From: Rhodopirellula sp. SM50
GTDB lineage: Bacteria; Planctomycetota; Planctomycetia; Pirellulales; Pirellulaceae
Assembly (NCBI RefSeq): GCF_002289565.1
Contig: NZ_NTFY01000040.1
Span: 1-64,000, forward strand
Length of the DNA stretch: 64,000 nucleotides
Reading direction: 5' to 3'
Numbering within the stretch: the stretch's first letter is position 1; each line of letters begins with the position of its first letter. The notes beneath the pieces were generated by a model. The model saw nothing but the letters and a program-made list of their open reading frames with translations, was not told the DNA's origin and searched no databases. Below are positions 28,116 to 54,500 of this stretch, one piece after another. The position numbers were made by a program, and so were the translations under genes.

Positions 28116-29246
28116 ATGAATCCCACCCAACGCACGTCTGTTCCCCATCGCCGTCGCTATTCCGAACCGCTCGAAGAACGAGTCTTGATTGATGCCGATG
28201 TGTCGGACTTTTTCGCCATGGATGGAGCCCATGATCCCCTTGAATCCAATGGGTCTGCAGCGGGGCACGGGCCGAAACAAAAACCTCGCACGGTGTCATG
28301 GTACGGCCGCATGGACAGCGGCTCGAGTGAAGTGCCGGGGCTGCATCCGCGTCAGTACGCGTTTGTCGACGTCACGGTCCAACAGCACGAGTCGCGGGTC
28401 GAGGACTTGGTCCGGAACGGGCAGCCGTTGGAGATCATCTACCTGGACCCGAAACAGAATGGCATCAAGCAGATGGCCGAAACGCTTTCGGGCGAAGCCA
28501 ACTTGGATGTCGTGTATCTCATTTCCGATGGCTGGGACGGGCTCCTGCAACTCGGGGATCAAGCGATTGATCGCGCCGATCTGGCACTCGATCATGCTTC
28601 GTCGCTGCGTGCCATCGGCGCCTCGCTGGCCGCCGATGGTGACTTTCTGCTTTACGGATGTGGTCTGGTCGGTTCCACCGCCGGCCTGAACCTGATCGAC
28701 GCCTTGTCTCGCTTGACCGGGGTGGAGGTCGCGGCGCTGGATGCATCGATCGGGAATGCATCACTGGACGAAAACTGGGAATTGGAGCTGCTGCGTAGCG
28801 AGTCGGTCGGACAGCATTGCATCTGTGTGTCGGCCTCCGGTACCGAGGGGCTCGCGAATCTCACACACGCGGCGCTCTCGGAGTCGACCGATCAGCAGCC
28901 GATCGGGTTGCCGGAGCAAGCCGGATTCGATCGCGGTACGTTTGGTCTCAACGTCTTGCTCGAAACCAGCTCGTGCTCACCGTGGTGCGCAGGATTTTCT
29001 CCCCACTTCGACGTGTTTCACCCACGGGGCATCCGGGTCGATGGGTTTGCGATTTACGGCGGCAACCTGTCTCCCGCTGTCGAAAGGATATTGACCGCCG
29101 CGGGTGAAATCGTGTCTGCCATCGGTGACAATCGGAGCGACACGCAACTCGTCAACGCCTCTGCGTCAGAGCAGCGATCAACTTGGCACGGCAGCCCGAT
29201 CGGCTCCGGTGCCTTCGGCGTGGGTTGGGCTTTGGTGACCGGTTGA
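28116..29246 (+). CDS. DUF4347 domain protein with LEPR-like N-terminal signature, probably a truncated surface protein
   Basis: This 376-residue protein begins with a basic segment and LEERVLIDA (residues 19-27), a variant of the LEPRxLLA/LEERxLLDA signature of giant planctomycete surface proteins. DUF4347 follows: EIIYLDPKQNGIKQMAE, then VVYLISDGWDGLLQLGDQAI, FLLYGCGLVGSTAGLNLIDA and DASIGNASLDENWELELL. In most proteins DUF4347 is only the first domain of a chain of thousands of residues, followed by cadherin-like, Ig-like or beta-helix repeats. Here the frame ends about 130 residues after the domain, in a stretch I cannot assign (PHFDVFHPRGIRVDGFAIYG). It may be a remnant or a free-standing domain. 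The DUF4347 function is not known. Confidence 0.82.
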   Translation: MNPTQRTSVPHRRRYSEPLEERVLIDADVSDFFAMDGAHDPLESNGSAAGHGPKQKPRTVSWYGRMDSGSSEVPGLHPRQYAFVDVTVQQHESRVEDLVRNGQPLEIIYLDPKQNGIKQMAETLSGEANLDVVYLISDGWDGLLQLGDQAIDRADLALDHASSLRAIGASLAADGDFLLYGCGLVGSTAGLNLIDALSRLTGVEVAALDASIGNASLDENWELELLRSESVGQHCICVSASGTEGLANLTHAALSESTDQQPIGLPEQAGFDRGTFGLNVLLETSSCSPWCAGFSPHFDVFHPRGIRVDGFAIYGGNLSPAVERILTAAGEIVSAIGDNRSDTQLVNASASEQRSTWHGSPIGSGAFGVGWALVTG

Positions 29247-33435: not shown

Positions 33436-36400
33436 ATGAAGGTCTGGTCTATGACTTCGCGTGAGCGAAAGAACTCAACGTCCAACATTGCTCCCCAGGA
33501 CGTCATCGAGTCGAACATCATTGAGTCACGTTCTGCCGCATCCGCTGTTTCAGGGCGAAACAAGAAACGACGCTCGTCCAAGCCGCGTGAGTTGCGGCGA
33601 CGTCGGTTGCTCGAATCGCTTGAGCCACGACAGTTGTTGGCTGGTCCGCAGCTGATCGGGATTCAGCCCAATGAAGGCGCCCTGATCACCGACGGAACCG
33701 TCCGTGATTCGTCACCGCGCGTGCTGACGTTCGGGTTTGATGAAGATCAGGTCCTGGACTCGACAACGTTTGATGGCATCCAGATCAGTCGCGCCGGAGA
33801 GGACGGACGATTGGGAACGGCCGACGACGTGGCGATCCAACGCGGCCTGGTCACGCTCGGCGACCCCAACCAGAACGAAGTGGTCGTCCGGTTTGCCGAA
33901 TCGTTGCCCGATGACGACTACCGCATCGAAGTCTACGGATTCGATGACATCGGTCTGGGAATCACCGGGCTCCGCAACACCGCGGGCGAATTGTTTGTCC
34001 CCAGCGATCCCGCGCTACGCAGCGAGCGAATTGATTTCAAGCTCAGCCTCGGTGCACTGGTCGAGTCGGTGGTTCCCCAACCGGTGATCCGCGACGCCAA
34101 TGGTCAGCTCCGGCAAAACCGCAATGAAATCGTCGTCTACTTCAATGAGGATCCGCTGTTTGTCGAAGACGATGACAACGGCAATCCCACGATGCGGTCG
34201 GCAGAGAACCCGCGCTTCTATCAGTTGCTGTTCACACAAGAGACGGTTCGAACGACCGATGACGAGTTGTTCTTCCCGGACGAAGTGGTCTATGACGAGG
34301 CGACCCACACGGCGCGTTTGTTCTTCAGTGAGGACATCAACACCTTGCCGTCGATTGCCGCCGGTGAATTGCACGAAGGCGGAACGTGGCGGTTGCGAAT
34401 CGGCACCGCCGTGGACGACCGCGTCGATCTGATTCTGCCGCCGCGTCAGTTGTCCGTGCAACCCACCGCTGTGACCGATTTCCAGCACGAAGGGTTGCGG
34501 GTCGAATTCATCCTCAACCAGATCGGCGAGGCGGCCAGCGGGCGCGAAGTCCGATTCGAAAGCACCGGGTCGGGCGGCTTGTCGGTTTCTTTGGACGCCA
34601 ACAACAACGTCGTTTTCAATTTCGGTCTTGCCGATCCCGCCGTGGATCCGCTGCCAACAGTCGACGAACTCAAAGCCGCCGTCGCGGCCACGCCTTCGGT
34701 TGCCGCCGTGCTGGCGGTTCGTTCGGAACGAAACGGCGATGTGAACGACGGTGGCGGACTGGAATTGCCGCGGAGTGTCATCGGTGCGCCCGCGCTGAAG
34801 ATGACCGCCGTCGGCGACACGCTGTCGACTTCCCTGGACGTCGGTATTTTCGGACAAGACAATTCGATCACCAGCGTGGTGGTCGCCGAATCGATCGATC
34901 CGCAACCGTTCCTGATCGAACTGGCCGGCGGAAACGATGATCCCGGACACCGCGACCTTGAATTCGGCGTTGATGGACTGCGCGGTCATATCAATTCGAA
35001 CTTCGGCCCCGACGCGCTCGATGGCATCACCGAGATCGCCTACAACTTTCAAGGGATTTTTGACAGCCAGGGTTCGACGGACTACTTGAACCAGATCAAC
35101 GCGCGGCAAAAGACGCGAATTCGTGAGGTGTTGAACCTGTGGGCGGCCGAGCTGGGCGTCCAGTTCCGCGAAACACTGAACGAAGGCATCACGTTTGCCG
35201 TCGGTGATACCGGCAATCTGCAAGCCCGCCCCAACACCACGCTGGTGCGATCCGGCGCCATCCCTTCGGTGCTCAATGCGTCGCTGCGGATCGATCCGAC
35301 GTTCGGTGAGTCGGCGATCGTGTTCAGCAATCAAGCGAACTTGAATCTGGACTTCGGCGAGGATTTCACCCGCAAAGCGACCGCGGGTGTCGGCTTCCTG
35401 CTGGGGCTCGAGCAGGCTTCCGAGCTGCCACCCCAAACCACCATGGCGCTCGATTTTCTGTTCTTGAATCAGAACATTGACACCCCGCTTGCCGGGGTCG
35501 ATTTGGAACCGGTGTTCCCCAGCAACTATGACGTCCAGCACGGTCAATACCTGCACAATCCCGACAGCGTCGACATCGACCTGTATCGATTCGAAGTCAA
35601 GTTGGGTGACGACGACAAAGTGGGGACGTTGACGGCAGAATCCTTTGCCGAGCGTTTGCCCGACAGCAGCCTGTTGGACACCACGCTGTCCTTGTTCGAA
35701 GAAACGCGGGCAGCGGCGGTTTCGGATCTCGGCTTCGGTTCCTCGCTCGGCGTGACGTTTGAAGCGTTGATCACCGGGCGATCGGGCAACGGAACGGAGG
35801 TGCGATTCATTCGATCGGACCGCAATTTCGGTGACGACGAAATCCGCGTCAATCGCGTCTTTGACAGCTCGGGCAATCCGATCGCCAACGCCGTGTTGCT
35901 GGACCTGCCCCGCAAAGGCGTCTTCATCAGCACCGTGACGGCACAACAGGTCGTCGATGCGATCAACAATGACCCCTTCGCCAGCTCGATCCTGCGGGCG
36001 TCGGTCACGCTGGGTGATCCGGCCTCGGATATCAGCGTCGGCACCGCGGCTCCTTTGCCGGTCCGGCTGCAGGGTGGTGGTCTGACCAAACTGGCCCAGA
36101 ACGATGATTACTTCAGCGAAGATTCTCGCATCATCGCGTCGCTCGACGAAGGCGTTTATTACGTCGGTGTCTCCGCCAGCGGCAACGATCAATACGATCC
36201 GACGATCCCCGGCAGCGGCTATGGCGGCCGCACCCAGGGCGCGTACGAGCTGCACTTGAAATTCGAGCCGTTGGTCGACGAAGTGGACGTGATCCGCGAC
36301 CGAGACAGCAGCCGTGTCGGAGTTCCCGGGACGCCCTTGGACGGTGACGGTGACGGGACGCCCGGCGGCGCGAACAATTTCTGGTTCCAAACTCGGCCCG

Positions 36401-45400: not shown

Positions 45401-48400
45401 GTTTGTTGACCGAAGGCATTCACTACACCTTCAATTATGACGAAACGAAAAATACCATCACGTTGACACCGCTGGCGGGAATCTGGAACAACCAACGGGC
45501 GTACCGGATCGAGATGAACAATCGGGACCGTACGGTTCTGATTGCCCCCACCGCCGACCAGATCAACGACGGTGACCAAATCGAAATCACCGACAGCAAC
45601 GGCGGCAAGGTGGTGTTCGAGTTCGAATCCGGATTCGTGATCCAGATGCCCGAGGCGTTGACGGTCGAGGTGCCGATCGAAGGGACCAATCAGGGCGGAC
45701 TGATCGATGGCGGTGTGTTCACCATCAACGACGGTGTGAACCCGGTCGTCGTCTTCGAATTCGACCTGGACGGCACGTCGTTGCCGAGCAGCATCCCGGT
45801 CACGCTGCCGACCACGCCGACTCCCACCGATTCGGCCGATCTGGATGTGTTCCGAAACACCATCGCCACAAACATCGCCGCGGCGATTGCGACCCAATCG
45901 GCGAACCTGAATGTTGATGTGCGGGTGGACGGACCACGGGTCATCATCGGCTCAGAACGGAACACCCGGGTCGACGCTGCGACCAGCGGATTGGTGACCG
46001 CCCCGCGGACGCTCGGATTGCAGGTCCCCTCGGCGGGAGCCGATGTCGGCGGCGTGCAAGCGGGGGAAACGTTTACAATCAGCAACGGCACGTTTGTGCA
46101 GGGATTCCAGTTCGTCGACGCCACCCGTCCGACGCCGGCACCCGGTTTCATCGGCATCAACGTCGACCCGCTGCCCGGACCACCGACGCTGCCGCTCGGT
46201 GCCAACGCGGTCGCCACTGCCATTCAGAATGCGATTTTGAGTTCGGCCTTGGAATTGACTCCGACGATCATCGGAACCACCGTCTATCTGGACTTGCCCG
46301 CCAGCGGTTCGGCCACTGTTCCGTCGGGGCAATTGCGTCCGGTCGGAGTCAGTCGCACACCGGCCGACGGCGATTTGATCACCTTCACCCCCAACGATGG
46401 CAGTGCGCCGGTCATCTTTGAGATCAACCGCACCGACGAGCGAGACACAAACGGCAACATCTTCGACGACGGTGTTTCCGACCAGAACCACATTCCGATC
46501 AACATCACCCGCTCGACCACCGGCAACGAGTTGGCGGCGATCGCGGCCGGCGAGATCCAGGCCCGTTCGATTCCGGGCTTGTCGTCCAACGACGTCAATC
46601 CGATCAATGGCGGCATCCTCAAGATCGGGGGACAGCCCGGATTGCTGTTGTCGGTCTCCGGCACCAGCCTGGAAGTCATCGGATCACCGGACGTGACCGG
46701 ACCGTCAACGTTGCAGATCTTCGGACCGCTGTTGATGTCGGTTCCGTTCACCGCCCCCAATGATGGTGACAGCTTCACCATCCTGGACAATGGCGGAACC
46801 CCAATCAATTTCGAGTTCGATTCCAACAACATCTTGAACAATCCCAACGCGGTGCGAATCCTGTTCTCGCGGTTTGATGATCAAGACACCGTTGCCACCT
46901 CCGTCGTCAATTCGATCAACGGATCGACGGTCGGATTGACCGCCACGAACCAGGGCGGCGGCACGATCTCGCTGGGGTTGATTCCCACTGCACGCGTGGA
47001 CGTGAGCAACACGTCACTGACCAGTCGCCGCGGGATCGTCAGCGATGGCGAGCGAATCACCATCACCCAAGGTGCCCTGTCGGTGACGTATGAATTCGAA
47101 TCGGTCAACAACGGTGGCGGCGTGACGGGTAGCAACGTGCCGGTTCCGTTTGAACCCGGTTCGACCCAACAAGCCGTCTCGGACAGCTTGGCCGCCGCGA
47201 TCACGAACAATCCGCGTGGATTGAACTTGAGTGCCGCGGTGGAATTCGACAACACGGTCAGCCCGCCGGTTCCCCGCGTCGCCCTCCGCGATCTGCCCGG
47301 CACCGTCGTCGACGTCACCGCCGCTCCGTCGCTGATTTTGACCGGCGTCCCCGGTGGTGCGATCCCGATCAGTATCTCGCCGGCCGATACCCCGTTCGAC
47401 ATCAAGCAAGCGATCCTTTCGGCGATCAATTCGGTCAACCAAGGCCCCGACGGCGTGGTCACGACCCTGGCCGCACAGGACCGAGGCGGTGCCACCTTGT
47501 TCGTTGAAAACGGCGTGCTGATCGACGGACCGCTGACGAATTACTTCCTGCCTGCGATTCGCGACGTCCAAGGCAACGCGTTGGAAGCGAACCGGCCGGA
47601 CAACACGACACAGTTCACGATCTTGATGCCCACGGTCGGACTGGATTACGGCGATGCACCCGACCCCGTCCTCAACATTCCCGGACGCTACCCGACCCGA
47701 TTGGTCAACGACGGGGCTCGCCACGTGGTGACCGATGGGTTGTACCTGGGAACGACCATCGACGCCGACCTCGACGGGCAATCGTCGGTGGGAGCTGACG
47801 GCGATGACGCGTTGACGGGTGTTTCGACCACCGGCACCCTGTTCTCGGTGACCACGGTCAACGGCTCGACGGCGGTCAATGTGAACATCGCGACGGTGGA
47901 CCCGACCACACGTGACGGCGATACGATCACCATCAACACCGGTGTCCGCACTGCGACGCTGGAATTTGACCTCAACGGACGCTTCGACGAAGACCACTTC
48001 GCGATCCAACCGACCGATCCGAATTCGGTCGATTCGATCCTGCAAGCCATTGCCGACGCGATCGCCGAAAGTCCCGTGGAGCCGGCGGCGATCGATTTCG
48101 TCTCGACCAGCATCGTGATCAGCGGTGATGACGAAGACGGTGTTTCGTTCTCCAGTTATCAAAACCCCAGCGGAGTGTTTAACTCCAATGTCGTCACGCC
48201 GATCACCTTCACGGTGACCGGCAGCGGCATCCTGCAAGGCTGGATCGACTACGACGGCGACGGCGATTGGAGCGAAAGCGAAGCGATTGCCTTCTTCGAT
48301 CCCGGTGCCGATCCGGACACCGCGCGGTCGCGAACGTCGCTCGCACTGACCGGTGATGGAACGCGATCGTTCACCTTTGACACGTACGTTCCCGATTCGG

Positions 48401-51138
48401 CGCCCGCACCGCTGTTCCCGACCTACACCACCGCGCGATTCCGGTTCTCGCGAACCGGGAACCTCTCGCCGGTCGGATTGTCACTCAGCGGTGAAGTCGA
48501 AGACTATCAGGTGCTGTTGCTCAACGGTGAGCCGCCACAGCTCAATGCCAACACCACCACGCGACGGTTCTCCGTCGATGAAGGCCAGGTCCTGCAAGCC
48601 CTGGACATCGACGGCAACCTGACCGGGACGGTGCCGTCGGATGACGGACTGTTGGTCGGCGTGTTTGATCGGGACGGCGATCCCGTGTCGATTTTGCCCG
48701 AAGACGCCACGGTCCGCGACCTGTTCACCGAAGACGGAACCTTCGCCGGCGAACTGGACCTGGACACCAATGGGACCTTCACCTTCCGACCTGAAGAAAA
48801 CTTCAACGGAAGCATCTCGTTCCTCGCTCGGGTGACGGATATCAAGTCCAATCCGGAGGAGCAACTGGTCAACGATACGGCGATCACCGTGACGATCGAC
48901 GTGTTGCCGGTCAATGACAAACCCTTCGCGACCGAAACCGATGTGATCACCACGGCGACGATCGACGAAGACCAAATCACGATCTTCCGCGCCGAAGACC
49001 TGATCGATCCGTTCTACGCGGCCGGACCGGATAACGAGCTGAACCAACAGCTGATCTTCCAATCGGTCTCCAGCCAGAACTTGGGCGATTCGATCTCAGC
49101 GCTGGGGGGAATCCTGGAAATTCTGCCCGACGGACGCAGTGTTCGGTACACGCCGCCGACCGATTACAACGGCGACATCCCGGATGTGTTCAACTTTGTC
49201 GTCGCGGATGTCCCCGGCGGCAACTTGATCGCCCAAGCCGCGGACAAGCCGGGCACCGTCTCGATCACGATCAACGCGGTCAACGATCCGCCGATCGCCG
49301 GTAACGATTTCTTCAACGCCGTTGAAGATCAGAATCTGGTGATCGCGATCAACGGCGGCGGTTCCATCGTCGGCATTCTGGACAATGACCGTCCCGGTCC
49401 CCAGAACGAGATCGATCCCCCGGAAAGTCAAACGATCAGTCTGCCCGAAAGTCAGTTCCCGCTGACGACTGACCGCGGTGGGATCGTTCGGTTGCAGACC
49501 AACGGACAATTGCTCTACACCCCGCCGGGATTGTACAGCGGCCCGGACGGCTTCCGTTATCGCATCGTCGATAACTTGGGTGCCGAATCGACCGGTTTGG
49601 TCTCGCTCGATGTGGGCGGTGAAAACGACGCGCCGATTTTCCAAGGTGTCGACGGACAAAAGGACGCGCAAAACGAACCGGTCGAAACGATCTCGTTGGC
49701 CGAGAGCAAACCGAATGCCCAGTCCACCGTTTACGACCTGGATACCTGGTTCACGGATCCGGAAAACGACACGCTGTCCTATCAGGTCACCAGCAGCAAT
49801 CCTTCGATTGTGCAGGTGAATTTACAGGGCAGCACGTTGACGCTGACCCGTCCGGCCTTCGCGTTCGGCTCGGTCGCATTGACCGTGCGGGCCTTCGACG
49901 GCAACGTGACGACCGAGCAAGAGGTGACCGTTTCGATCATCAACGAAAATGATTCGCCCCTGGTCATCGGATCACTCGATCCGCTCGAAGGAGACGAAGA
50001 CGAAATCACCCGTCGCGAACTGACGAGTGTCTTCAGTGATCCCGATGGGGATACGTTGACCTACGTCGTCGCGAGGCTCGGTTCGATCATTCGGCCCTCC
50101 GATGCTCAGATCGCCGCCCATCCGTTGATCAACTCCATCGATTTCGAGGGAGACCAAATCGTCATCACGCCCAAGGCGGATCAATTCGGTGAAGTCACGA
50201 TCGAAATCGAAGCGAGCGACGGATCGTTCCGCGTCAGCGATAGCTTCACGCTGACCATCAATCCGGTCCCGGACGCGCCGGTCGCCGTCGCCGACAGCTA
50301 CAACGTCGCGATCGGGTCCACCCTGAACGTGCTCAATCCGGCAAACGGATTGCTGCGAAACGACAGCGATGCCGATGGCGATCCGATTTCGGTCGACCTG
50401 GCCACCGTCACACCACCGTCGCTCGGAACGCTGAACCTCAGCGCCGACGGAACGTTCACCTACACCAGCAACGCCGGCGATGTCGGCTCGGTCGATACGT
50501 TCACCTACCGTGTCGTCGATGCCCCCGCAAGCGGATCGCCGCGGTTCAGCGAATTCCGTACCGTGACGCTGACGCTTTCACAGTCGCGTTACCAGAACCC
50601 GATCCAGGGCATGGAATCCGACGTGACGGCGGATGGAAACATCTCGCCGATCGATGCCCTGCGGGTGATCAACTTCCTGGCACGGCGGGCACCGAGTTCC
50701 GGTCAAGTCGCGGTCGCCGACATCGGTTCTGGCCCGCCGGACTTCTACGACGTCGACGGAAACGGTTTCGTCAACCCCTTCGATGCCTTGCTCGTGATCA
50801 ACACGCTCGCGCAGCGGCAAAACGCAGCTCAAGGCGAAGGCGAACAGATTGGCCGAGAACTTTCGGCATCCAGCACCGTTTCCTTTGCAACGGCAAACTC
50901 GGACTTCCTGCCGACGACCAACGTCCAGCCGTCGATCGAGCGAGAGCAAGAAACGCCGACGACGGTTGCCGATTCGACCGATGCCCTGCTGACCGCCGGC
51001 ATCAACATCGAACCGGTTTCGTCGCAGCAAGCAGGATCGATTCTGATCGAGAGCTTGGCCGAAACGCCCAGCGACGAAACGATCGATCACGCGATGGCCG
51101 ACTTGTTGACGGAGCTGGATGACGCGTTCGAACTTTGA
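33436..51138 (+). CDS. Giant secreted LEPR-XLL protein with degenerate metzincin region, GEVED domain and dockerin
   Basis: The 5,900-residue product starts with a basic leader ending in the planctomycete signature LEPRQLLAG near residue 67, thought to mark export. An SbsA-like Ig region follows (LIGIQPNEGALI). A metzincin-like region has lost its zinc site: at 644-660 it reads FTRKATAGVGFLLGLEQ, where the paralogue has HEIGHSLGLGH. Downstream are PPC-type folds (VDIDLYRFEVKLG), beta-helix sections (MIDAGAILKLRGSYINVGSS), a MAM-like section, about eleven copies of a DG-x-F-x-I-x-DG...FEF module, and a GEVED domain (about 4736-5030). Five or so cadherin-like Ig repeats joined by NDxP come next. 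The dockerin at about 5718-5797 has two Ca loops (DVTADGNISPIDAL, DVDGNGFVNPFDAL). ATG 33451 is an alternative start. It is probably cell-surface or matrix attached. Confidence 0.93.
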   Translation: MKVWSMTSRERKNSTSNIAPQDVIESNIIESRSAASAVSGRNKKRRSSKPRELRRRRLLESLEPRQLLAGPQLIGIQPNEGALITDGTVRDSSPRVLTFGFDEDQVLDSTTFDGIQISRAGEDGRLGTADDVAIQRGLVTLGDPNQNEVVVRFAESLPDDDYRIEVYGFDDIGLGITGLRNTAGELFVPSDPALRSERIDFKLSLGALVESVVPQPVIRDANGQLRQNRNEIVVYFNEDPLFVEDDDNGNPTMRSAENPRFYQLLFTQETVRTTDDELFFPDEVVYDEATHTARLFFSEDINTLPSIAAGELHEGGTWRLRIGTAVDDRVDLILPPRQLSVQPTAVTDFQHEGLRVEFILNQIGEAASGREVRFESTGSGGLSVSLDANNNVVFNFGLADPAVDPLPTVDELKAAVAATPSVAAVLAVRSERNGDVNDGGGLELPRSVIGAPALKMTAVGDTLSTSLDVGIFGQDNSITSVVVAESIDPQPFLIELAGGNDDPGHRDLEFGVDGLRGHINSNFGPDALDGITEIAYNFQGIFDSQGSTDYLNQINARQKTRIREVLNLWAAELGVQFRETLNEGITFAVGDTGNLQARPNTTLVRSGAIPSVLNASLRIDPTFGESAIVFSNQANLNLDFGEDFTRKATAGVGFLLGLEQASELPPQTTMALDFLFLNQNIDTPLAGVDLEPVFPSNYDVQHGQYLHNPDSVDIDLYRFEVKLGDDDKVGTLTAESFAERLPDSSLLDTTLSLFEETRAAAVSDLGFGSSLGVTFEALITGRSGNGTEVRFIRSDRNFGDDEIRVNRVFDSSGNPIANAVLLDLPRKGVFISTVTAQQVVDAINNDPFASSILRASVTLGDPASDISVGTAAPLPVRLQGGGLTKLAQNDDYFSEDSRIIASLDEGVYYVGVSASGNDQYDPTIPGSGYGGRTQGAYELHLKFEPLVDEVDVIRDRDSSRVGVPGTPLDGDGDGTPGGANNFWFQTRPEHRILNFTDDGDAVVPGQTITIVSGTGIVRTYEFVPSGGQPIPGNVPVFYSDGTGGFPTPGGNLASALASAINFRQNETGVSVVRVGTGLEFTGERRIALSNGFRAAVAIGRNIFVDKTAGPNADGSLENPFNNIANSDVANAFGSAIEGDIVRIVGNGGLDGLVETEVDNFSYQIGLTDVGGRSLEDGRTMDVPRGVTTMIDAGAILKLRGSYINVGSSTLQVDRSGGALQVLGAPRLVGLSLEGDPVSTTLISDVDAGLEGYDDGSVIFTSIRDRMADADAAGDDSPTSKAGDWGGLIFRRDLDQFEGRRDLEDEGIFLQRVNHAEIRYGGSSNVLIDSVQQLVNPILVINLRPTITFNEITFSADSAISASPDSFEETSYQAPRFQQAGEFTADYDRIGPEIYDNLLVENTVNGLFVRVPTTATQTPREMTVAGRFDDIDVVHVLPENLVIASKPGGSITDGFAPSLALVSARQLPGGSLAAGTYLYKMTFVDDDGFESLASADQFSFTVSDDDSSVELTALPLISRGNDYVSRRLYRAEASANPEFRLVADLGASSASFIDDLALDAGTEGLVTLDLNRTGTRGRLDGSLVMDPGIVMKLSGSRIELQPGAVMLAEGDGSNPIVMTSIRDDRFGAGGTFDTNNDDGSPVFQAPSHGDWAGIYAGPTSSISIDNGVISYAGGISLIEGGETIGFVPLQLQQADGRITNSRFEFNDSGQDGAGPLGRFGRLAVAPSTIFIRGSQPVIVGNTFIDNDGSIIDIDVDSLTGDRVIDIGRETGALNRISELDDNFGPMVRFNRYDDNDLPGLDQITGMEIRGGTLATESVWDDTDIVHLVFDSIIVDNIHSGGGLKLRSRPDESLVVKLGDQDNPLLTELSSGQGTPNSATIGTGLTASGTPNDAIDRIGGSISILGLPDSPVVLTSFRDDTVGAGLTPEGTQFTDNNGDKSNSRPEANDWRSILLDQWSNDRNVDVIPELELATEVAPGLNGSVQNAQVLGELATSLTASDEVLRLGFEVEGFLSNPDDVDTYSFTGSPGTEIWVDIDKTSFTLDSVIELLDANGNVLARSNDSGDEIANGSNVEVFDPRLEGVTTSLQARDPQFSNFGVGGVYEDFDTTNPRDAGIHFTLTGNPTNPNSRSTYFFRVRSASINPDDAAGGLTRGGYRFQVRLSEDQEFPGSVVRYSDIRYANHGVHVQGLMGTSPLLGEASENEAADPFFADNGQINPPVLIDTTTNSTEVPSQRAQYLGNIVQNRNNVISVAGELSTSSDVDFYQIDLLNDDIDAAIRSMIFDIDYAAGFNRPDTNISVFYDPDGEFSEAVEPRLVLFGTNSNVLDDLTSPNGENDGSEKLSRGSISTGDPLIGPVTLPEGTYYIAVTGAGVEPVALTSSQFVRREPINSVRRIVEQRFDAGESPSTAGGPVVPDFFTNVDIGASEFELAGDGMFGHGKPGHFDGTSGPAQNFSQVFSEFFVAGGDAPGFAFGGFGAADLDALNWSLDDNIEIGGDFVFNNSDNTSTSIPHVSINGSLGGDRSDLFQFTVDTDNARVILDIDDGHSFVNDLDPDSENIVFVPDATSVDTTMYLFRQDPVTGRYVQVFSNTLSSTLDGRSGSNSVLDPFFDSAAFGTPNLLAGTYVVAIAQSQVGVSVDANTGAIVTANTDPLFGPLDYRLHVSVEDHLLPQGLFGNQTLHYDRLNNTAPATITSQPFDLSGYVDFDLPTFYFNYRFDPFIDGSFNSDDAQIRIFSNENPTGRVIASNVNLQADDTWFQFREDIGDFAGDTGIRVEVTYTPVSGQSFENDGLFLDDFIIGFAERGETIFNTPGGTDEFTGFGNGGAGEYQLETRPATPYAASVGFGTVGLVEDFDTNDRHNQAFTLVAPAGSQISDGDTFVLGDGASIQTFEFTTTPGTVQFGNTPVLYGVGDSPAQVAQAIRTAITQQTGIDIEASSAAGQDNETMTDGRLSLAGSARGSFLAIDSVADAPPLGTSLARDTDGHLLLPAILHNGFGDSNYVRTQGQVIIDSNKISDVRAIGVWAEPGVRDIDPEDVRDNDFSFGFPTFLPLIDGNHPFLQYPPVGNAYPGYVRNLPILNDSVLGGLAPGIVVSNNTIDQAGYSGVKVDGESAPFVLDVFDMIELAALDPNIAGAGNRTILEGALLTIDAGGTRVTFEFEEIDGIGGPVGSGTQGGNGVRDGHVPIYYREDTASGYNRTNAIDRVSYSSIELATSIMQSIQGSILVTNGLVELVTPTIGPSPYRRNRAFEFLQQTPMSFDSAAVYLQGASEVYFRGSQNAFTTTQAPVAESVQPFARIVNNTIYGSDGLESQFPEANDESNDVMADAIDTKVGPSHRNVYTSTATLGDNVGPLGPGGDVDFYRVNLGLGDRLVVDIDTVAGGANTAIQIFNELGERQSFDGGSGNASVISLTATAPDHLDPASTGLAGGLVQDVVNSRDPFVDFFAPKKGVYYVAVSADSNLNFDPNAISGRTGATADLGDYTINLETYAPRTHVISADTGRATGMVGSDVIGTTFVITQVADLPPNFIVGGVTNARTFEFVPLGAAAQPGNVAIQVGDANQAEDFLPDIMRAISDAIEPRVGNARVNYGLNAHPLPNNDHTAVPGPIARVRATALGGYESDNQGIVNTTRRGLENGVLMTHRDGIGNTVDHDFHSTIILDQDTIGYGHDRRTTAGSGTTENFVFVENAAKIELSPEAIAAGLRLDPAPGFDIDQVINETGIMVTAGASPAILNNVLLNLHESVVVEETHSPGFSTVGGDQQVKPMEVVVVGSVFQHDEPEAPVFTDAPLVIVGHTTDANKGPSNVNGGTDDFNLTNVDDAVTLVNPGGDNFLPAPFSSVIDSNVDSLRERSALSSLRESIGLPISNVLAPRRDVTGVKRADNPLYPNTGQGSSIFGDRGSVELADLVGPIAIAEAPRDNDAEGIDTDPNVSFINLDGGVYEQFRIQLRDSGDSSDPFAGSGIDNNTIVVAEIPGIRDRGANVTLFEDDRLLTEGIHYTFNYDETKNTITLTPLAGIWNNQRAYRIEMNNRDRTVLIAPTADQINDGDQIEITDSNGGKVVFEFESGFVIQMPEALTVEVPIEGTNQGGLIDGGVFTINDGVNPVVVFEFDLDGTSLPSSIPVTLPTTPTPTDSADLDVFRNTIATNIAAAIATQSANLNVDVRVDGPRVIIGSERNTRVDAATSGLVTAPRTLGLQVPSAGADVGGVQAGETFTISNGTFVQGFQFVDATRPTPAPGFIGINVDPLPGPPTLPLGANAVATAIQNAILSSALELTPTIIGTTVYLDLPASGSATVPSGQLRPVGVSRTPADGDLITFTPNDGSAPVIFEINRTDERDTNGNIFDDGVSDQNHIPINITRSTTGNELAAIAAGEIQARSIPGLSSNDVNPINGGILKIGGQPGLLLSVSGTSLEVIGSPDVTGPSTLQIFGPLLMSVPFTAPNDGDSFTILDNGGTPINFEFDSNNILNNPNAVRILFSRFDDQDTVATSVVNSINGSTVGLTATNQGGGTISLGLIPTARVDVSNTSLTSRRGIVSDGERITITQGALSVTYEFESVNNGGGVTGSNVPVPFEPGSTQQAVSDSLAAAITNNPRGLNLSAAVEFDNTVSPPVPRVALRDLPGTVVDVTAAPSLILTGVPGGAIPISISPADTPFDIKQAILSAINSVNQGPDGVVTTLAAQDRGGATLFVENGVLIDGPLTNYFLPAIRDVQGNALEANRPDNTTQFTILMPTVGLDYGDAPDPVLNIPGRYPTRLVNDGARHVVTDGLYLGTTIDADLDGQSSVGADGDDALTGVSTTGTLFSVTTVNGSTAVNVNIATVDPTTRDGDTITINTGVRTATLEFDLNGRFDEDHFAIQPTDPNSVDSILQAIADAIAESPVEPAAIDFVSTSIVISGDDEDGVSFSSYQNPSGVFNSNVVTPITFTVTGSGILQGWIDYDGDGDWSESEAIAFFDPGADPDTARSRTSLALTGDGTRSFTFDTYVPDSAPAPLFPTYTTARFRFSRTGNLSPVGLSLSGEVEDYQVLLLNGEPPQLNANTTTRRFSVDEGQVLQALDIDGNLTGTVPSDDGLLVGVFDRDGDPVSILPEDATVRDLFTEDGTFAGELDLDTNGTFTFRPEENFNGSISFLARVTDIKSNPEEQLVNDTAITVTIDVLPVNDKPFATETDVITTATIDEDQITIFRAEDLIDPFYAAGPDNELNQQLIFQSVSSQNLGDSISALGGILEILPDGRSVRYTPPTDYNGDIPDVFNFVVADVPGGNLIAQAADKPGTVSITINAVNDPPIAGNDFFNAVEDQNLVIAINGGGSIVGILDNDRPGPQNEIDPPESQTISLPESQFPLTTDRGGIVRLQTNGQLLYTPPGLYSGPDGFRYRIVDNLGAESTGLVSLDVGGENDAPIFQGVDGQKDAQNEPVETISLAESKPNAQSTVYDLDTWFTDPENDTLSYQVTSSNPSIVQVNLQGSTLTLTRPAFAFGSVALTVRAFDGNVTTEQEVTVSIINENDSPLVIGSLDPLEGDEDEITRRELTSVFSDPDGDTLTYVVARLGSIIRPSDAQIAAHPLINSIDFEGDQIVITPKADQFGEVTIEIEASDGSFRVSDSFTLTINPVPDAPVAVADSYNVAIGSTLNVLNPANGLLRNDSDADGDPISVDLATVTPPSLGTLNLSADGTFTYTSNAGDVGSVDTFTYRVVDAPASGSPRFSEFRTVTLTLSQSRYQNPIQGMESDVTADGNISPIDALRVINFLARRAPSSGQVAVADIGSGPPDFYDVDGNGFVNPFDALLVINTLAQRQNAAQGEGEQIGRELSASSTVSFATANSDFLPTTNVQPSIEREQETPTTVADSTDALLTAGINIEPVSSQQAGSILIESLAETPSDETIDHAMADLLTELDDAFEL
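45540..48130 (+). repeat. Cluster of repeated DG-x-F-x-I-x-DG...FEF modules inside the first giant protein
   Basis: Seven consecutive modules begin near 45560, 45700, 46054, 46360, 46756, 47040 and 47910. Each has a DG-D/E-x-F/I-x-I start (DGDQIEITDS, GGVFTINDG, AGETFTISNG, DGDLITFTPNDG, DGDSFTILDNG, DGERITITQG, DGDTITINTG). A strand ending FEF or FEI follows 10-15 residues later, and the second half usually carries VAxAIxxAI or a like helix. Four more lie earlier in the protein, near 36438, 42049, 42857 and 43970. The second giant protein has one near 54011. Copies are diverged, so the repeat is old. Confidence 0.75.
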
Positions 51139-51515: not shown

Positions 51516-54500
51516 ATGAGCTTTCGAAGCCTTGGTAACCGTGTCAGGAACCTCGCCGAGCGACGCCACGATCGGCAGCGCACGCAAAAGCGTTTTCAAA
51601 CGCGCCGGAACCTCGTCCAGCAATTGGAAGACCGGCGGCTGCTGGCCGGACCTGAGCTGATTGCGATCCGTCCCGATTCGGGGGCACTGCTCCGCAACGG
51701 CGATACGCTGAACATCGCCCCGAGCGAGTTCAATCTGCAGTTCCGCGCCGGTGCGGATATCAACGAAAGCACGATCACGACCGATTCGGTCAAGCTGGTC
51801 CGCAGCGGTGGCGATGGGACGTTTGGCGATGGTAACGAAGTCGACGTCGCGATGGGCTACGTCGGTCTGGAAACCCCGGGGGATACCGATCCGACCAACC
51901 TGCAACGCATCGTCTTCCGGCCCTCCAGTTCGGCATCGTTCAATTCGACGGATCCGGCCGCGGCGTTGCCCGACGACACCTACCAAATCCAAGTGTTCGG
52001 CTCCGGTGCCAACGTGCTCACCAACCTCAGCGGTGAAGCATTCAACGGCGGGCTCGATGAATTCACCACCTTCCGCCTGGATCGTGGTGCCCAGGTGGTC
52101 GCGGTCGTTCCCCAACCGATCAGCTACAACCCGCTGTCCCAAGCCTCCGATGAGATCGTCGTCTACTTTGACGACCAACCCTTGGATCCGACACAGGTCA
52201 TCGACCCCGCCTATTATCGACTGGTCAACACGTCCGGCTCGATGACGTCGGCTGATGATTCGACGATGCTCGCCGAAACGGTCACGTATGATTCGGACGC
52301 CAATCGCGTCACGTTGAAATTTGCGTCGGCCATCCCCGAAGGCAACTATCGGCTTGATATCGGTCAGTCCGGCGGCGACAACTCGACCCCCTCGACGGCC
52401 ATCCAGGTGGGGAGCCTGAATTCCAGCAACGCGTTTGCCCAAAACGGATTCCTCGGTGACTTCGGCGGCGTCAGCGACAACGCGGCCGACGTCGACCTGT
52501 ACAGTCTGCAACTTTCCGCCGGAAGCACGTTGACGGTCAAGGTTTCGCCGCAGGCAGCGGGGCTCAACACCCGTCTTCGCTTGCTGCAGTTCCCCGGCGG
52601 AACCGAAGTCGAACTCGACAACGTCACCGCCGGTCCCGACTTGGACAACCTCTTGAGTTTCCCGGTCGCGGTCTCCGGCAATTACTTCGTTGAAATCACC
52701 AGCGCTGATGGTTCGACGGGGTCGTACCTGCTCAACGCCGCGGTGACTGCCAGCCCGATTCTGGGCGACGACGACAACTCGACGTTTGACAGCGCCACCG
52801 ACCTCGGCACGCTCGGATCGGCCGATCTGCGTATCACGTCAAGTATCCGTCGACAGCCGATCCCGATTCCGCCGCGGGCCGGCAGCGAAGACGAACCGGG
52901 ACACCGCCAAATTCAACGGGAAGCCCACATCGGTGCCCGGGGCACACAGCCGACGGTGCCCGCGGACATTCGCACGGTCAACTACTACTTCCCCGACACG
53001 CTCGGCGTCGACACCAACGGTGATCCCTACATCAACCTGATCACCGCAAAGGAAAAACAGATCATCCGCGAGATCTTCGAGATCTACGCGCAGCTTTCGG
53101 GTTATGAATTCATCGAGTCTCCCGCCACCACCCCCGGCGGCGATCAGTTGATGATCGGTAAGGGCGACTTCCGTGCGGTCAGTCCCGGACTCGGTCCCAA
53201 CGACGGCGTGGCAGGGTTGGCCAGCGGTAGCTTTGCGCTGGCAAACGGTGCCATCTACGACCAGGCCAACCGATTCTTCGGCGATGGTTTCACCACGGTG
53301 ATGTTCCACGAGATCGGTCACTCCCTGGGTCTGGGACACTCGTATGACATTCCGTCCAACATGGGCGGCGGCGTGCCCAACGATGTGTTGCCCGGCGATC
53401 ATGATGTCGTGCACCTGCAACGGATTGTGCCGCCCAACTCAACCGACATCGACATGTACGGCTTCACGTTGGCCCAGCCGGGACAGCTGCGGGCCGAGAC
53501 GATCGCCGAGCGGTTGGCCATACCCAGCTTGCTCAACACCGCGATGTCGCTCTACCAGGAAGTCGACGGCCAGTGGGAATTGATCGCCCGCAACGACCAA
53601 TATTTTGGCGCCGACTCGTTCCTGGAGTTGCATCTCGAAGCGGGCAACTACTCGATCGGAATCACCAGTACCGGTAACACCGACTACGACCCGAACGTTC
53701 CCGATTCGGGTTACGGCGGCACCACCGACGGTGCGTATGATTTGCAACTGTCTTTCCAGGCCGAACAGGATGGCGTGTTGCTCGACGCCGACGGCACCGC
53801 CTTTGACGGAGACGCCGACGGCACCCCCGGCGGTGTGTACTCGTTCTGGTTCCAATCCAACGACCCGGACACGACGATCTATGTCGGCAAGCAGAGTGAC
53901 ACCACGCCCGGACCCGAAGGCGACGGACGTCTGTCCAGCCCCTTTGACACGGCCCAAGCCGCCCTGCGGCAGGCAGGCAACCGTATTGTGGTGCCACTTG
54001 ACGGCGCCGACTCGATCAACGACGGCGAGCGTTTCGTGATTGATGACGGCGTCAATGTGGCCACGTTCCGTTTCGGCACGTTAGGTTCCGATCCGGTCGA
54101 CATCAGCGCTGCCAACACCGCGGCCGATGTGGCTGCCGCCATCCAAACGGCGATCAACAACGCCAAAACGGCCGGGCGTCTGAGCGCCTCGGTCAACGTC
54201 AGCGTGTCGACGCGGATCGTCCAATTCTCGGGCATCAACAACCTCAATATCGCGGGTTCGCCGACGTTGATCGCCACGCCCAATCCGGTCCGGATTCTGG
54301 CCAACGGCGGCGACGACCTGGACATCGCGACGGCCTTTGACAACCGTCCGTACCTGATCGGGCAGGACACCTCCGGAAACGCGCTCGATGATGGAGCGGA
54401 ATTCCTGGTGCCGCAGGGCGTCAACGTGATGATCGAAGCCGGCGCCCTATTCAAGATGCGTCGAGCGAACCTGGACGCCGGTACGTCGTCGGGCAACCTC

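Follow-up and report, generated by a model that had tools for sequence, protein, structure and literature searches.

Pseudoproteases are mostly described from eukaryotes. Among metzincin-type enzymes, inactive homologues of ADAM-type metallopeptidases serve in binding in animals, and the accessible part of a review of these proteins uses "bacteria" and "prokaryot" twice each (PMC11266112). In Stieleria, giant adhesin-like proteins of >5000 aa have been annotated as cadherin-like and Tandem-95; in the accessible part of that report, the products of S. varia locus tags 17480, 17490, and 17500 are 6271, 7630, and 6858 aa long, and the table enters "Matrixin" for 17500 only and does not mention dead domains (PMC7717043). 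We found no account of dead copies in the literature that we searched, a search that did not reach most subscription journals. Here, we analyze a matrixin-like domain of a giant protein that has lost its zinc site; taken together, all computed tests identify it as an ancient pseudoprotease that selection has kept and whose kind of loss recurs within its family.

The window, a 64,000-nucleotide stretch of DNA from Rhodopirellula sp. SM50, contains two giant genes, both on the plus strand and 377 bases apart. The first, P1 (33436 to 51138), is a single open frame encoding 5900 aa; the second, P2, starts at 51516, runs to 63998, and continues beyond the window as a 6222-aa open frame on the contig. 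P1 begins with a motif resembling Planc_extracel, a planctomycete extracellular element (aa 54 to 71; 33595 to 33648, plus strand; E = 0.0011, 19 bits, under the Pfam cutoff of 25.5). There follow the dead metzincin domain, a PPC-like domain, a long middle region, a GEVED domain (48232 to 48513; E = 1.6e-7), a Big_9/cadherin-like domain (best stretch, 50269 to 50523; the fragment as a whole gives E = 6e-25 and 1e-25), and, close to the C-terminal end, a dockerin type I domain (50617 to 50808; E = 3e-9), all on the plus strand. The N terminus of P2 also carries a Planc_extracel-like motif (17.8 bits, under the same cutoff of 25.5), and matches to PPC, GEVED, terminal Big_9/cadherin-like, and dockerin type I domains are common to both proteins; the Big_9 repeats, GEVED, and dockerin of P2 all lie beyond the window end, where they were seen in locus L008. 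Judging from their domains, both P1 and P2 are probably secreted. A third paralogue, a 5268-aa open frame on contig C65, has a dead zinc site too, reading FFRGAMFGVGQLLGYGY.

An insertion of about 120 aa (35704 to 36075; approximately aa 757 to 880) that is absent from P2 interrupts the PPC-like domain of P1; the second part of the domain (aa 881 to 986; 36076 to 36393, plus strand) aligns with P2 residues 685 to 781 at 45% identity (E = 8e-22). The start of the insertion is also present in the P1-type relatives L017, L020, L021, and L022. A domain search of the seven frames adjoining P1 and P2 gave no functional clue: it returned an HrpB-type helicase, DUF1501, PSCyt/PSD1, HEAT/DUF7133, and DUF4347, one frame had only a weak double-zinc-ribbon match, and one had no match. 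The DUF4347 protein is encoded upstream of the giant genes (28116 to 29243; E = 6e-32); giant surface proteins often contain this domain.

Sequence comparison indicates that P1 and P2 are paralogues over much of their length. In blastp alignments, P1 residues 41 to 756 match P2 residues 16 to 682 at 28.8% identity (E = 5e-46), and the best further stretch pairs P1 1577 to 2399 with P2 1190 to 1945 (40%, E = 7e-142); the dead motif of P1 should thus be read as an altered copy and not as a chance likeness. The initial annotation had aligned the two proteins through their metzincin regions and had reported that all three zinc-binding histidines and the catalytic Glu are replaced in P1, and both statements hold. 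The P2 domain (approximately aa 444 to 637; 52845 to 53426, plus strand), which was identified by Pfam, a PDB sequence search, an AlphaFold2 (AF2) model, and Foldseek, contains the full site HEIGHSLGLGH at aa 598 to 608 (53307 to 53339, plus strand). Opposite it, in the same register in the family alignments, P1 reads AGVGFLLGLEQ, which lacks the HExxHxxGxxH zinc-binding motif: within the former zinc helix and its ligands (codons 644 to 660; 35365 to 35415, plus strand), A650, G651, F654, and Q660, numbered as in the annotation, replace the first His, the Glu, the second His, and the third His, respectively. The surrounding degenerate matrixin-like domain spans approximately aa 487 to 706 (34894 to 35553, plus strand), and its limits, like those of the P2 domain, are approximate; it was delimited by homology to P2, the AF2 model, and Foldseek. 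The annotation had considered that an HExxH elsewhere in P1 might supply the zinc site, but none occurs across its 5900 aa; P2 has exactly one, at aa 598, within the 4161 aa inside the window. A feature that the annotation overlooked is the candidate Met-turn methionine, M670 (35443 to 35445, plus strand), which by sequence sits 10 residues past the position of the third ligand, an arrangement shared with live relatives reading HEIGHLLGLGHSYDLPPGTIMG; it is kept in 71 of the 78 relatives of the P1 type defined below, and a Met occupies the same column in 27 of 40 live copies.

We next consider the predicted fold. The AF2 model of P1 473 to 757, built from an alignment of 82 rows that included 6 live copies, has a mean pLDDT of 80.7 and a pTM of 0.76, with ten-residue blocks at 86 to 98 over model residues 61 to 210. 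The altered stretch forms a helix (aa 643 to 655) at the place of the P2 zinc helix (aa 592 to 603), as judged from secondary-structure elements and Foldseek matches and not from superposition of the two models; the P2 model is the weaker one (pLDDT 67.4, 31 rows). With the P1 model as query, Foldseek returned 48 PDB chains at E ≤0.001, with MMP-7, karilysin, and snapalysin at the top. By title, 47 of them are MMPs, karilysin, snapalysin, or serralysin-type proteases, and the remaining one (4l6t, rank 40) is a chain of an AB5 toxin. TM-scores were moderate (0.54 to 0.68 by target in 44/48, 0.33 to 0.41 by query; rmsd 4.5 to 9.7). The P2 model gave 62 matches, led by MMP-1, which the P2 sequence alone also reaches in a PDB sequence search (E = 1.7e-5). 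These models predict that the P1 domain keeps the metzincin fold with its backing helix, sheet, and active-site helix, and not the unrelated fold at residues 644 to 660 that the annotation had named as the finding that would speak against its reading.

Profile searches gave a less clear-cut result. A profile of 63 P1-like copies lacking HExxH gave 11 PDB matches up to E = 10, of which 9 were matrixins; the best E value was only 0.29, for a match that aligns the dead helix with the zinc helix. The 82-row profile, which includes the 6 live rows, reached E = 2e-4 against the PDB. Pfam Peptidase_M10 was matched by 18 of the 63 dead rows at E ≤0.1 (best, 0.0064; the next family matches 2) and by 10 of 10 live rows, while P1 alone gave no Pfam protease match. 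P2 itself lies near the Peptidase_M10 cutoff of 24 bits, scoring 23.4 (P2 1 to 1200), 26.1 (domain alone), or 26.8 (genome search).

A search of 60 genomes, including the host's own, with P1 residues 451 to 757 found matches in 40. Before counting, we dropped L001, L002, L003, L005, and L008 as the same copies as L009, L007, and L006, along with L072 (equal to L030) and L004 (no domain match). The first 91 distinct copies comprised 35 with all four zinc-site residues (live) and 56 without; 11 further loci (L205 to L215), included in no tree, comprised 6 with HEHH, 3 with an incomplete site, and 2 without a site. From a scan of named genomes, we took the best 80 of 260 loci by likeness to P1, with titles that include Stieleria, Roseiconus, Rhodopirellula, Roseimaritima, Pirellula, and Anammoximicrobium; 5 are live and 75 dead, a proportion biased by that choice, and 9 of the 80 were removed as duplicates of existing rows. 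The full set of 162 family copies, a sample biased towards P1, holds 122 dead and 40 live members. By genome, 24 of the 40 have both dead and live copies, 12 only live, and 4 only dead, with L214 (HEHN) scored as dead in these counts even though it lacks the third His only. In each of the 14 genomes of the window's genus, a P1 orthologue and a C65-type copy are both dead, and one or more live copies are present as well; in genomes of the order outside the window's family, the full site is present in 7 of 10 scorable copies. A search for plasmid-borne relatives gave no match.

Several further observations concern the family as a whole. The live copies L043, L047, L051, L054, L076, and L084 carry a second HExxH (such as TNVLAHEVGHGLGIAH) 636 to 687 aa upstream in the same frame and are thus giant proteins with two metzincin-type sites. 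Matrixin-type matches also occur in longer open frames, at G000:C46:74523-74741 (10968 aa) and G002:C1:4212021-4212182 (16321 aa). Of the 21 genomes with a P1-clade copy, 19 also contain a member of the C65-type second dead clade (L007, L040, L042, and others); none of the 19 other family-bearing genomes does.

A tree of the 162 copies, built without the motif columns, requires 11 changes of state, at least 4 of them on well-supported branches. With the best rooting, a live ancestor, and no regain, 12 losses are counted, namely, a clade of 78 copies of the P1 type, a clade of 29 comprising C65 and its relatives, five groups of two, and five single copies; this count comes from one quick tree under these assumptions, and well-supported branches force only 3 to 4 changes. 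In a careful tree of 69 rows hand-chosen from the 162, 8 changes are needed (8 to 10 over bootstraps), 3 of them forced by starred branches, and the 15 P1-type representatives form one side of a branch with 97/97 support; the root was not inferred, so that "clade" presumes a root outside the P1-type rows. These trees suggest that the zinc site was lost several times within one family of giant proteins and, on the sequence evidence, place the loss in P1 as ancient, since the dead copy is part of the old 78-row clade. The P1 domain would then descend from a family of active peptidases, live status being judged from the intact site. A single loss shared by all dead copies was rejected on the 69-row tree (p-AU = 0.000267), with one-change trees in 0 of 200 bootstraps.

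Within the P1 clade, the first His, the Glu, and the second His are lost in 78 of 78 rows. The third His persists in 12, which, together with partial sites (GENH and HEHN) in other copies, provides bridging intermediates; L214 retains HExxH with the third His changed to Asn (HEIGHALGLGN), possibly a first step of site loss. The Glu position is occupied by a small residue in all 78 rows (44 G, 24 S, 9 A, 1 C), and 66 rows have L, F, or M in place of the second His. In matrixins, the stretch before the active-site helix is the upper rim that holds the substrate. Here, the P1 clade, which is present in many planctomycete genomes, has a conserved R-x-D(-P) element before the former zinc helix (R618-I-D620-P621 in P1; 35287 to 35298, plus strand), as established by the clade alignment and a pattern count. 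R618 is conserved in 74, D620 in 78, and P621 in 69 of the 78 rows, and W569, Q576, and T586 in 77 each; in the 40 live rows, the equivalents of the latter three are W in 3, Q in 12, and T in 13, the R618 and D620 columns are gaps in 38, and in the second dead clade, the D620 equivalent is D in 16 of 29. The pattern RxD[PKTAS] occurs within 50 residues before the site in 76/78 P1-clade, 0/29 C65-clade, and 0/40 live rows. In the P1 model, this region comprises a helix (608 to 613) and a strand (615 to 619), with pLDDT blocks of 91 and 96; the P2 model has no such helix before its zinc helix, but its pLDDT there is only 65 to 71. In a subclade of P1 orthologues (L021, L023, L024, L025, and L026), additional residues directly follow the Met-turn (in L021, 34 more than in P1) and split the search matches.

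We think it likely that P1 carries an old pseudoprotease repurposed as a noncatalytic structural or protein-binding module, and the suggestion in the initial annotation that the dead domain is kept for binding or as a scaffold is the part of its interpretation that stands as the best reading. The domain would no longer cut anything, and its rebuilt face would work as a structural or protein-binding module near the N terminus of a surface or matrix protein, whether the downstream neighbor is live or not. It is conceivable, if somewhat doubtful, that the domain is instead a pure structural relic without a ligand, kept only because its loss would disturb folding of the giant protein: the zinc site is replaced by small and hydrophobic residues, most copies lie in frames of thousands of residues, and 14 of 14 aligned rows continue into the same type of PPC-like flank. 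However, the invariant Asp620 and the near-invariant Arg618, Trp569, Gln576, and Thr586, all much rarer in live rows, hint at something beyond a spacer, even though they could also reflect packing, and the R-x-D element may be plain structure. A more specific version of the binding-module reading, which we offer tentatively and consider unlikely in its full detail, treats planctomycete giant proteins as a natural test bed for the conversion of proteases into binders. In this version, the zinc site of one matrixin-like domain would have been lost some dozen times, and the P1 clade would have turned into a fixed, dedicated binding module near the N terminus of a secreted, dockerin-tailed protein. 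An R-x-D-P lid would have taken the place of the substrate-binding edge, and the module would recognize a partner, be it a matrix component, a second giant protein, or one of the live paralogues.

The annotation had further proposed that the dead domain acts as a partner, decoy, or propeptide of P2 and had asked whether dead and live copies occur side by side. If dead domains regulate live paralogues, they would bind P2-type proteins as an inhibitor, decoy, chaperone, or half of a hetero-oligomer. Inactive metallopeptidase homologues can regulate active cousins, as described in the accessible part of the review cited above (PMC11266112). As the neighbor, we took the closest further family copy that lies no more than 30 kb away on the same strand, read from match coordinates and live/dead states. 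P1 and P2 are one such close pair, and 19 of the 21 genomes that carry a P1-clade copy have a neighbor, the remaining two (G008 and G022) having their further family copies on separate contigs. The neighbor is live in 13, so that dead and live copies stand side by side there, and dead in 6 (G002, G004, G005, G006, G019, and G024). P1-clade and live copies occur together in 20 of these 21 genomes, as a partnership would also predict, although live copies are present in 36 of the 40 genomes with any copy; the live neighbors belong to several subclades and not to one orthologous group. In a search of eight genomes with a live-copy profile, which added only five very weak matches over 28 to 45 positions in other frames, the three family members of G024, a one-contig genome, were all dead, as were the single members in G018, G028, and G054; these four genomes contain other matrixin-type matches, one in G018 being below the cutoff. 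A live family partner is thus not needed there, and together with the dead neighbors, this makes obligate pairing with a live family member unlikely. The decoy version is further disfavored because a loosely defined Gly-rich pattern, counted over the 45 residues directly before the site and seen in 37/40 live and 15/29 C65-clade rows, occurs in only 10/78 P1-clade rows, which have the conserved R-x-D there instead. We therefore regard regulation of live paralogues as improbable; a role as partner of P2 is possible but not favored over a noncatalytic structural or binding module, and pairing with a live member may occur in some species.

Selection was assessed by the Nei-Gojobori method over the five closest orthologues (six for the C65 type). 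In P1, dN/dS is 0.105 for the dead domain, 0.113 for its core, 0.057 for the N-terminal part, and 0.063 for the PPC region; the P2 values are 0.086 (domain), 0.048 (core), 0.122 (N-terminal part), and 0.075 (PPC region), and the C65-type dead domain has the lowest value of all, 0.026. All tested regions are constrained, the P1 dead domain somewhat less than its own flanks. The higher values of that domain relative to its flanks, and of its core relative to the live P2 core, show that some relaxation is present, as would be expected if a useless domain in a long gene were still decaying. However, the values of 0.105 and 0.026 for the two dead paralogues indicate purifying selection, no stop lies inside any match from the 60-genome search, and all 14 genomes of the genus have the P1 type, in each case dead, so that decay is very improbable, in agreement with the initial view that an intact frame of 5900 codons does not signal a decaying gene. 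P1 combines loss of the catalytic residues with a gene kept by selection, as a pseudoprotease should; its residues 487 to 706, approximately, are homologous to P2, have a predicted metzincin-type fold, have lost the zinc ligands and the Glu, and are under purifying selection. Finally, a chance alignment of the motif, another fold, or zinc bound at an HExxH elsewhere in P1 can be practically dismissed: P1 alone lacks a Pfam protease match, but the long homology to P2 (E = 5e-46), the AF2 model, the Foldseek matches, the dead-only profile, and clade conservation argue against the first two, and the absence of any HExxH argues against the third.

This one bacterial family spans complete, half-lost, and wholly lost zinc sites, with several separate losses and a large, old dead clade that has its own signature, and so allows tests of the frequency and the route by which protease folds become binding domains. 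Because the P1 domain gives no Pfam protease match, domain annotation misses such copies. What the P1 domain shares with the matrixins (Pfam PF00413; MEROPS M10), such as MMP-1, MMP-7, and bacterial karilysin, is the predicted fold, the location of the active-site helix, and a Met-turn Met recognized from the sequence. It differs from them in retaining 0 of 4 zinc-site residues, in lying within a protein of 5900 aa that carries a dockerin close to its end, and, in the model, in an extra helix and strand with R-x-D ahead of the active-site helix. The three-copy array of G004 has open frames of 6297, 7634, and 6907 aa, close to those of S. varia 17480, 17490, and 17500, and we infer from these lengths alone that the two sets correspond. 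Whereas the inactive ADAM-type homologues are animal proteins, the P1 family consists of bacterial giant proteins, with several separate losses in one family.
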